Of a DNA stretch of 64,000 nucleotides, positions 9,301 to 62,553 are shown one piece after another (position 1 is the stretch's first letter; each line of letters opens with the position of its first letter). The notes under the pieces are model-generated. The model did not search any database. It saw only the letters and a program-made list of their open reading frames with translations, and had not been told where the DNA came from. Source of the stretch: Axinella damicornis (lineage: Eukaryota > Porifera > Demospongiae > Axinellida > Axinellidae); contig OZ007506.1 of assembly GCA_963931865.1 (NCBI GenBank), positions 4,398,926-4,462,925 of the forward strand, in the 5' to 3' direction. The position numbers were made by a program, and so were the translations under genes.

Positions 9301-12300
9301 AACTACTTGGCCGCAAGTCCTTCAAGTTCAATGTTACTCTCCAACAAATATGCCCCATTTTGTAGGTACTGATCACACACGTTTGCCTTGCAGCTAGTGT
9401 AGAACATCTTTCTGTTATCTTGTCAACCATTTCAGGTTGGTATTTCTGAGGTGCATGCTGAAGTGCTTCCAAACCACAAGAAAGACCAGATTGCCACACT
9501 GCAGAAGGATGGGACGAAGGTCGGTCAGGGCAGGCATGTGACTATGATTGATTGTTGCTAAGTATCATCTAGACTCTGGAATCCACAGCAAGACGAAGAA
9601 AAACTGGACTTGTTGCAGTCCTTACTTTCGTTACACCCTGAGAAATAGAGATTCACAGATGTATGATGCTCCCCTTTCCACAGGTGGCGATGGTGGGTGA
9701 TGGGATCAATGACTCTCCTGCCCTGGCTCAAGCTGATGTGGGGATTGCCATTGGTACAGGCACTGACGTTGCTGTGGAGGCTGCTGACATTGTGCTCGTG
9801 AAGGTACATAGGAGAATAATCTATGGAGTAGTATAATTATCGGTTCAGAAATATACATACTGACCACTGGAGATGTATCTAAGTCAGGACCGGCACGAAT
9901 GATCCGGCTGGTACGGTTTTGGCTGGATCAATGTCTCGACAGAAAGGTTCATGCAGGCTCACTCCCTGATTGTATGTACGTAGCTGTTGGTTCAGCAGAA
10001 GTTAAACCATTGGCTGGCTGGCTGGACTAACATCTAGAACTAATCTTGAACTTCTTGCTAGACCAATAGCCACTTGGAGTCTCCCAATATAAAAGGATAA
10101 TGGAAGTAGCTGCTATCGCCAGGCATTGAGTCATTGAAGTGATAATCAGCCTGCCTGCTACCACTGTGCACATCCTTCACAGCAATTTTTTAATGAAAGT
10201 TTTATCCTGTATTTGCTACACATCCTGTAATGAAGTTTTATACTGTATTTGCTACACATCCTGTAATGAAAGTTTTATCCTGTATTTGTTACACAAGGCT
10301 TAGCACCTCATGTGCAAATAGATGTAATGGACACTCTTGGCATTGCAAATGAATTTATAGGTAATTCAGAACATAGGCTAACTGGAAAACACAGAAATGG
10401 AGGAACAGAAATGGGAACGGGAATGGAAATTGGAAACAGAAATGTGGGAACGAAAACAGAAACAAGTTGTTACTATGAGTGCTTGAGCCTGGCACTGCTC
10501 AGCGATTCTGAACTAGAGTAAAAGATTTTTTGTTCTCTTGTGCTTTACACGCACATGTTCTCCACACCACTGACCATGGACTAAAAATTGGCTTGCTCTG
10601 TAACTGCAGCTAATTAAGTTCAGACTTGACTAGCCTATGCTACATATTTGACCTTTCATCCACACAGGATAACCTAATTGATGTCATTGCAGCTATCCAC
10701 CTCTCCAAGCGAACTGTGCGCAAGATCCGTATGAACTTTGTCTGGGCCATCTTCTACAACACGATTGGTATCCCCATTGCAGCTGGGGTGTTGGCCCCAG
10801 TGGGGGTGACGCTACAGCCCTGGATGGCCAGTGCTGCCATGGCACTCAGCTCTGTCTCTGTGGTATGCAACTCACTGCTGCTGAGATACCTATGGTGAGC
10901 TTTAACTACCGGCTGGTTATTTTGTATATATGGTCCACGGGCTAACTTACATAGTTTCCTGAACAATAGACATTCTGCATGGAATATGGTATTCTTATTG
11001 ACTTCTGGATGCATGACCTTGAGAATCAGGATTCAGGAATGGTACTAGGTTATGCATATACTACGCCTGCTCACACAGCACAGGACAGAAATGAACAAAG
11101 GTTTTAGACTTCCTGTTTTAATGTAAGTCTGTCACTTCTTGACTTCAGCACTTGAATAATGTAACTGACTTGTTAGTCAAGAGTTTGTAGATCTAGAGAG
11201 ATATTGAAGTACAAAACCCAGAACCACACCATCAGAACTTACAGCCTGTTTGCACTAGCGCTCTGGATCCCAAACTTCATCGAACTAGACCCAACCTGGA
11301 GCATTCTTGCCCCATGTGTGAAATGCAATTGAACCCTACAACAGCTCCAAGTACTGAACAGGCCCACCACTGCTTACATTCGGAGAACATGACTGTATTA
11401 TCAAAGGGGGGATCAATCATTGAGCGTTTGACATAGCACAAAGGAGAGGTACATAGGACGTTTCGGCTTGAGATGCTGACAACACAAAGTAATCCCCTGC
11501 GGACTGCGGGTGACACTCCCGGTTCGATCAGAGAAGAGCTCCAGAATCGCACAGAGAACCAGTGAAGCCCTGCTCGTATATAGAAAGGATAGGTGAGGCG
11601 AGGGCCATACTGACGCCTGGGCCTAGTCCCAGGTGGGCCCAGGTTTGGCTATACCACTGGTCGTTTATATCTACGAGACGCAGCTCTGTTCAACCAAGCT
11701 GTGTCGTACGCCATTGGTTAGGTCGGAAAGCCAGGATTAGTGTAACAGCTGACAGCAATACGATGGTAACCATGTGTTTGTGTGGGTACAGATGGGATAT
11801 GTATGGCCAAGTCAAATATGGGGGCTTACCACTTGTATTCGCACCTTGCATCCACTTTGGAAAGGCAGAAGCAGCATATCGCCATCACAGATTTGGAAAC
11901 TATGGCTCTGCATGATGTACCGAATTAGCCTCGATCCCAGGCCCGAGACGCTCTCTCGGGCCTGGGATTGAGGCTAGTACCGAATATACTTCTCTGTGTT
12001 GTTTTCAGCTTACGTATCTCAATCAATTAATATTATATGGAGAATGTGAATGTGATGGAGCTGCTCAAGCATGTGCAAACAGTGGATACCAGGCACTCTT
12101 CTCCCTGTACCAATAGCTTGGGAATGATGTTATGATAGCAGGCACCAACTTATTTTGCATTACTGTCCCATGCAAACACACCTGCACATATAGCTATCAT
12201 AAGCCAGCGGTGGAGGACTATCAGGACCAACCTCGTACTGACCACAGGAGACAAGGAGATCGCTACGAGACATTAATTTTCTCCCCTTCTACCTCCCTGT

Positions 12301-62414: not shown

Positions 62415-62553
62415 TAGTCGTTCCCAGGCCTTCTACACCTCCAGATTTTGATCGCTTGCAGGATGCATATAATTTTACTACTGGTTGTTCCTCGACTATG
62501 CATACTGCAAGCGATCAAAAACTGGAGGTGTAGAAGGCCAGGGAACAAGGCTA
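62415..62553. mobile_element. 139-bp hairpin element with perfect 9-bp target duplication
   Basis: Starts TAGTCGTTCCCAGGCC and ends GGGAACAAGGCTA. A long inner inverted pair (TTCTACACCTCCAG...TGATCGCTTGCA) continues the stem. GCTTCGAAT flanks both sides (62406-62414, 62554-62562). Confidence 0.9.

Follow-up and report, generated by a model that had tools for sequence, protein, structure and literature searches.

The stretch of DNA analysed here (hereafter the window) comprises 64,000 nucleotides of the sponge Axinella damicornis (contig OZ007506.1, positions 4,398,926 to 4,462,925, assembly GCA_963931865.1) and harbors eight insertions that share inverted ends of the type TAG[CT]CTCG and are bounded by 9-bp target site duplications (TSDs). 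A preliminary description, made from the letters alone, had reported them as a family of mobile hairpins, and its coordinates were right for all eight; the 9-bp flanks are perfect in seven cases and differ by one mismatch at 12514-12558. No strand is assigned to any of the elements, which are as follows.

11926..11976: hairpin element, 51 bp; TSD GTACCGAAT at 11917-11925 and 11977-11985
12514..12558: hairpin element, 45 bp; TSD GTGGTTGGT/GTGGTTGAT, one mismatch, at 12505-12513 and 12559-12567
17832..17880: element, 49 bp; TSD AACTCCTTC at 17823-17831 and 17881-17889
37089..39055: hairpin element of about 53-57 bp, split by nested repeats (shell 37089-37128 and 39039-39055); TSD GGCACTTCG at 37080-37088 and 39056-39064
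56667..57001: element, 335 bp, longer type (tip, loop, second arm GTCTGGTAAC), with an internal TAGTCTCATGCCCAGC at 56834; TSD GAGTGCATG at 56658-56666 and 57002-57010
57942..58006: hairpin element, 65 bp; TSD CAATGGGTG at 57933-57941 and 58007-58015
61812..61837: element, 26 bp; TSD ACACATTCC at 61803-61811 and 61838-61846
62415..62553: element, 139 bp, left end 2 bp short; TSD GCTTCGAAT at 62406-62414 and 62554-62562

When folded back, the 51-bp element is a single 23-pair stem without interruption, and in the 26-bp element one complete 17-bp end overlaps the outer 9 bp of the other end. By eye, both the right part of 17832-17880 and the interior of 62415-62553 (CTGCAAGCGATCAAA) are similar to the hairpin of L004. 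Among the 71 inverted end pairs of the window (at most one mismatch from TAG[CT]CTCG, at most 3 kb apart), exact 9-bp flanks were found in six, where chance predicts 0.0003, and exact flanks at lengths (k) of 4-8 or 10-13 in none; two elements lie outside this test, i.e., 12514 (right end with two mismatches, TSD with one mismatch) and 62415 (left end 2 bp short). When the criteria were relaxed (1,175 pairs, at most 700 bp apart), the window yielded no further elements.

The size range originally given, 26 to 1967 bp, has to be narrowed, as the upper figure results from nesting (ca. 1.9 kb of other repeats) and the window range without nesting is 26-335 bp. Inside the 37089 hairpin lies an unrelated repeat, CCGGTGTCAT...ATGACACCGG (37129-39038, no strand assigned), which does not belong to the hairpin family and itself holds two more repeats (37714-38225, 512 bp, and 38279-38804, 526 bp); relatives of this interior are dispersed, with the borders CCGGTGTCAT...ATGACACCGG and without a match to the TAG ends. 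Minus the nested repeats, the element is comparable to the 52-bp hairpin of L070. The 1,967-bp copy was also considered as an autonomous element and rejected, since by eye it contains no transposase-like frame and holds nested repeats instead. Many GGGTCCCCATTTTCCC palindromes occur in the repeat of 37129-39038 and in L044-L049, and no obvious TSD was seen by eye in six copies.

The 37089 element is located within a repeat family, and its flanks, joined with one 9-mer, matched three uninserted paralogues. Two of them lie in the window:

31540..31548, plus strand: empty paralogous site of 37089, single 9-mer GACACTTCG
46284..46292, plus strand: empty paralogous site of 37089, single 9-mer GGCACTTCG

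The third, in L203, likewise has a single 9-mer and no insertion. These sites are paralogous repeat copies and not the same site in other individuals; given that each of the three has one 9-mer, the 9-mer pre-existed and was duplicated on insertion.

Conserved ends and target site duplications across the genome

Searching the whole assembly (226.5 Mb in 120 contigs), we found the exact 17-mer TAGYCTCGTKCCCAGRC at 26,923 places (13,058 + 13,865), i.e., one per 8.4 kb on average, and its reversed control at none; this figure counts ends, not insertion events, and includes tandem arrays and copies carried in other repeats. Complete hairpins of 22-52 bp with exact ends (TAGCCTCG-N6..36-CGAGGCTA) occupy 2,997 sites (control 0), and mixed hairpins, in which TAGCCTCG is combined with CGAGACTA, another 287 (140 + 147; control 1). 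The end consensus, TAGYCTCGTKCCCAGRC(CC), taken from 72 ends of 36 elements chosen for having TSDs, is conserved to about position 17-19 and is near noise beyond. The proposal that little more than an 8-bp end is required does not describe most copies, which conserve about 17-19 bp, although perfect 9-bp TSDs are also present in three copies whose ends are of sister types with the same outer 8 bp (L062:130-188, L093:3187-3520, and L193:743-919); two of these keep TAGTCTCG (TAGTCTCGCGGGCCAG, TAGTCTCGGAACCAG) and one is degenerate. The TSDs show, if anything, a weak base preference: 18 of 36 start with G, and 1 of 36 ends in A. The two ends of an element tend to be alike: they are equal at position 4 in 55 of 56 elements (36.6 expected), at position 10 in 39 (25.6 expected) and at position 16 in 38 (23.3 expected). 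Symmetric sub-families or copying between arms could each be sufficient to produce this likeness.

Flanks were scored in two samples. The blind sample consists of the first 37 exact 17-mer places outside arrays on the plus strand of contig C1 (444543, inside a sampled region, was skipped), each paired, without regard to flanks, with the nearest inverted 8-mer of at most one mismatch up to 660 bp away; 31 of the 37 have such a partner. At k = 9, eight of these 31 pairs are perfect, 13 have at most one mismatch and 17 at most two, where shuffled pairs give means of 0.00, 0.05, and 0.12; at k = 6, 7, 8, 10, and 11 the pairs with at most two mismatches number 3 (shuffled 1.4), 0, 1, 2, and 0. Four more perfect TSDs (L056, L082, L064 with 1,329 bp, and L071 with 729 bp), found with looser ends or with sequence extended by about 5 kb, as was done for six of the 37, bring the total to 12 of 37. 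The second sample holds all 20 short hairpins of 26-41 bp among 50 of the 2,997 hairpin sites, array units and copies already sampled excepted. Here, six TSDs are perfect at k = 9, 11 have at most one mismatch and 13 at most two (shuffled 0.05), and at k = 8 there are none. Among the copies with poor TSDs, some seem to be shifted by a base (L057, L058, L224) and others have no TSD.

Matching of the flanks is thus not at chance level but peaks at k = 9 in both samples, and chance as its source is ruled out by the window test and both sets of shuffled pairs, as the preliminary description had maintained. Genome-wide sampling and the paralogous empty sites also bear out its central claim, that the elements, very small ones among them, are mobile and duplicate 9 bp of target. 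Insertion with a 9-bp duplication is well supported.

Size classes, tandem arrays and the smallest copies

Longer members carry the common tip followed by a second arm (TAGYCTCGTKCCCAGRC-loop-GYCTGGT), e.g., the 335-bp window copy, L075 (605 bp) and L071 (729 bp), and sampled copies reach 1,329 bp, with nesting possible in that copy. Copies of the 605-bp family, too, are present at several unrelated sites; of 40 that were scored (of 594 candidates, the query counted in), 32 align over their full length, are 89-100% identical and have inverted ends of ca. 84 bp. By eye, tips of longer copies recur in short hairpins, that of L075 in L088 and that of L077 in L058. Related short hairpins are also present at unrelated sites: one group of 45-57 bp comprises the 37089 shell, L067, and L063 (perfect TSDs), L087 (one mismatch) and L070 (two mismatches), a further pair at different sites is L008 (53 bp, TSD with one mismatch) and L055 (57 bp, perfect TSD), and a 92-bp and an 89-bp copy, 94% identical, have the perfect TSDs GTAATAGGT and AACAAGACC. 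Interiors had been described as unrelated, which holds in part only, as there are sub-families with common interiors. At L089:95-201, a partial element, an inverted flank copy (GCCATCTCC vs GGAGATGGC) and a complete 57-bp hairpin adjoin one another, which resembles template switching at a hairpin.

The sampled sequence contains 249 tandem arrays, ten of them with a family end in the unit (L080 and L095 are one array). The unit is exactly the hairpin plus its TSD in L086 (66 + 9) and L088 (49 + 9), and in our reading the units of L040 (36 bp: 26 + 10 or 27 + 9), L001 (16 + 9) and L083 (18 + 9) take in the 9-mer of the left flank. The L087 unit (49 bp, array borders GTCCTTCAC/GTTCTTCAC) is without the 9-mer, and the reading as hairpin plus TSD covers neither the two L090 arrays nor L080/L095.

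The pattern of the 26-bp window copy has seven exact places genome-wide. At two of them, window 61812-61837 and C6:12373123, the identical 26-mer is bounded by different perfect TSDs; of the other five, two are units of one array, two belong to one duplicated region without TSD, and one has mismatches at 3 of 9 positions. Two other 26-bp hairpins (L213, L215) have 3 and 6 TSD mismatches, and perfect TSDs reappear at 32-35 bp (L218, L220, L221, L223). The statement that even 26 bp moves thus draws on two different perfect TSDs, with five places that do not support it, and later deletion in place could also have produced such copies; mobility at 26 bp is suggested, and the smallest size is the weakest point of the analysis. 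A second dispersed 26-mer (65 exact places) was discarded as evidence of mobility: the four of the 65 that were examined belong to one 34-bp insertion in a repeat of ca. 1.4 kb (L236-L239), whose copies are 90-96% identical and carry this old hairpin insertion with a perfect TSD TCACCATGT in two of four. We offer only tentatively, and with more doubt than confidence, the idea that a palindrome of 26-35 bp, in which the 17-bp end overlaps its mirror image, may still be excised and inserted with a 9-bp duplication, no interior being needed. If true, the minimal palindrome would be a transposon reduced to its transposase binding site; it would rank among the smallest DNA transposons of nuclear genomes, and palindrome and TSD jointly would seed satellite arrays.

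The candidate driver and competing explanations

The domains of Mutator-like elements (MULEs) are represented in the genome by 51 matches to PF10551 and 85 to PF20700. Our survey covered 30 PF10551 loci (ca. 3.3 kb), ten families with 1.7-2.1 kb more per side, five MULE regions (7.5-8 kb) and the regions of three of the 85 PF20700 matches. An autonomous element with the same ends, which the preliminary description had proposed to look for, did not turn up: the family ends border none of the 15 MULEs (families or regions) surveyed with flanking sequence and none of the three PF20700 regions. MULEs with ends of other types were seen, i.e., GGGATCCACTTTG (L017), GGGTCGGTGC with a 9-10-bp TSD (L022), and GGTATTAGTAAATC/GGGTACTAGTAAATC (L209). 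One MULE, L029, has family-type ends ca. 4.9 kb apart, but it was rejected as an autonomous partner, for the left end belongs to another insertion, which is 92 bp long and bounded by a TSD of its own, GTAATAGGT. PF12762 (DDE_Tnp_IS1595), the Merlin domain, had no match in the genome, and three frames from the 1,329- and 729-bp copies had no Pfam transposase. As side observations, two 98%-identical copies have in common a hairpin at the end of a MULE frame (L028:489-568 and L035:2724-2799), the last residues of which (SLVPRPPPRF) seem to be encoded by the hairpin, and a 2.7-kb element (L235:527-3251) has the ends TAGGGCCTGAACRAATG (TAGGGCCTGAAC), an 8-bp TSD TGCTGTAC and a 630-residue PF20700 frame inside.

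We consider it probable that a Mutator-like driver, reduction and array formation together gave rise to a superfamily of miniature inverted-repeat transposable elements (MITEs) or foldback elements with TAGYCTCGTKCCCAGRC ends. The hairpins are best read as non-autonomous DNA transposons, an extreme variant of known MITE and foldback elements that is unusually small and numerous (thousands). As in MITEs, there are inverted terminal repeats (17-19 bp, and ca. 84 bp in the 605-bp family), a target duplication of constant length (the k = 9 peak and the single 9-mer of the three empty sites), and many copies without a gene (26,923 ends, 2,997 short hairpins, and no transposase in the frames tested); as in Mutator-like elements, whose TSDs are 8-11 and mostly 9 bp long, both samples peak at k = 9. 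A Mutator-like transposase encoded elsewhere would act in trans on the ca. 17-bp ends and move copies by cut-and-paste. Longer copies may lose their middle, aided by pairing of the inverted ends, to become hairpins that consist of hardly anything but their two ends; these would still move, down to at least about 45-55 bp. The arrays of hairpin plus TSD could result if the polymerase slips from one 9-bp repeat to the other across the hairpin (for the precise excision of IS256, slippage over 8 bp or more has been proposed; PMC5225508), and symmetric descent or copying between arms may keep the two ends of a copy alike. Several points weigh against this reading. No transposase bordered by TAGYCTCG ends was found among the MULE loci examined, and TSD length, which makes MULEs the best guess, is the single basis of that assignment. 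The TSD sample comes from one contig, C1, and more than two TSD mismatches occur in 14 of the 31 blind pairs and 7 of the 20 short hairpins. Equality of the ends is little above expectation at position 9 (51 vs 44.0) and shows no excess at position 14 (37 vs 37.7).

A serious contender, to which we give somewhat over a one-in-three hearing, is that the shortest copies (about 26-40 bp) are immobile, i.e., that they are stubs of longer palindromic MITEs that inserted first and then lost the middle on site, with the old TSDs still around them. Short hairpins do resemble the tips of longer copies minus the middle, short homologies can serve at the junctions (by eye, GGC in the case of the 26-mer), a perfect TSD is present at just two of the seven exact 26-mer places, and the second 26-mer is, in the four of 65 places examined, one 34-bp insertion within a repeat. 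However, the related hairpins of 45-57 bp and 89-92 bp share interiors across sites with different TSDs, so that repeated deletion is not readily their source, an argument that stops short of 26-40 bp. It is rather unlikely, in our estimation, that the driver comes from outside the MULEs (hAT- or P-like, or of an undescribed superfamily) and makes 9-bp duplications by coincidence, even though all MULE elements examined are without the family ends, the TAG-starting ends resemble those of hAT elements, and the PF20700 frame of L235 is bordered by TAGGGCCTGAAC ends and an 8-bp TSD. Transposases of the hAT and P type make 8-bp TSDs, and with at most two mismatches 8-bp matches are rare in our samples (1 of 31 and 0 of 20) against 17 and 13 at 9 bp, which is a comparison of TSDs, hAT and P domains not having been searched; the lack of a PF12762 match speaks against Merlin. 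It appears very improbable that the hairpins spread by template switching or by copying of hairpins, with no transposase involved, a mechanism put forward for the GC clusters of mitochondria. The hairpins are short GC-rich palindromes and the L089 arrangement resembles template switching, but the marks of a DNA transposase are there, namely a duplication fixed at 9 bp, a single 9-mer at the empty sites and longer relatives (605, 729, and 1,329 bp) that have these ends too, and the clusters of yeast have AG or ACT flanks (PMC4478555), which the hairpins do not share, nor are they mitochondrial.

Occurrence in other organisms, significance and known systems

A 147-bp copy, its TSD GGTGCATAC perfect, was found on a contig (L099) that is filed under Cycloclasticus, as symbiont of a Poecilosclerida sponge; the contig also has an immunoglobulin-domain frame (PF13895, E 6e-8), and on these two grounds we take it for host sponge DNA; the hairpin family would accordingly seem, judging from sequence, to occur beyond one species. 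Among the 83 bacterial stretches matching the 17-mer, L099 is the one clear family member. The palindrome CGTTCCCAGGC...GCCTGGGAACG or a close form accounts for 32 of 85 bacterial matches (e.g., L105, L108, L118, L127, L130, L162), by eye without a second TAG end, and L155 (Calothrix) has a 38-bp hairpin with the second end and no TSD. The remaining bacterial matches were read as chance, and so were the three in viral contigs, which have no second arm in the 75 bases inspected. The palindrome CGTTCCCAGGC...GCCTGGGAACG has 11 bp in common with the animal ends, a likeness that may be due to chance, and it recurs in cyanobacteria, e.g., Microseira wollei and Hormoscilla, as well as in a small number of other bacteria.

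Besides the hairpins, the window contains an open frame at 12691-13491 (minus strand) that may be the end of a Frizzled-type receptor; a public contig of 150 kb holds a protein 97% identical to it. At 15824-16738 lies a 304-residue frame that by eye resembles the gag of a retroelement, zinc-knuckle motif included.

Should the short forms be mobile on their own, the lower bound for eukaryotic cut-and-paste would be two ends of ca. 17 bp, perhaps overlapping, with almost nothing between them, and such a minimal mobile form would, if true, be awkward for the idea that the DNA between the ends bends to join two bound transposases. Arrays of hairpin plus TSD represent a route from a single insertion to a small satellite, and 17-bp ends this frequent will interfere with gene models and with the annotation of repeats in genomes of this kind. 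The transposase behind the hairpins is a concrete target.

We found no published description of the hairpin family in the literature; text matches to the 8-mer are too many to judge, and those to 12-13-mers look unrelated. Foldback elements (FB of Drosophila, Rehavkus) share the 9-bp TSD and the foldback structure and are linked to MULEs, but they are of kilobase size, with long ends built of tandem repeats and of other sequence. Animal MULE families, e.g., Muta1 of Aedes aegypti, are alike in having 8-9-bp TSDs and derivatives that far outnumber the autonomous copies (PMC5225508). Their inverted ends exceed 100 bp in 12 of 14 families, and the available portion of that account describes no sizes below the ordinary, whereas in Axinella complete copies of 26-60 bp are present, with no transposase linked to them. 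The plant MULE MITE MuTAnT has short non-autonomous copies and, where readable, a 9-nt TSD as well, but it targets TA microsatellites (PMC4486113), and the Axinella hairpins have no such target and little interior. In size and behavior, the GC clusters of yeast mitochondria (GC42; PMC4478555, which also cites hairpins of sponge mtDNA) are comparable, being mobile palindromes of ca. 42 bp with short direct repeats whose units merge and shuffle. Those clusters are mitochondrial, and the four commonest have 5-25 identical copies; unlike them, the Axinella hairpins reside on chromosome-scale contigs (10-22 Mb), are bounded by 9-bp TSDs, and have longer relatives.

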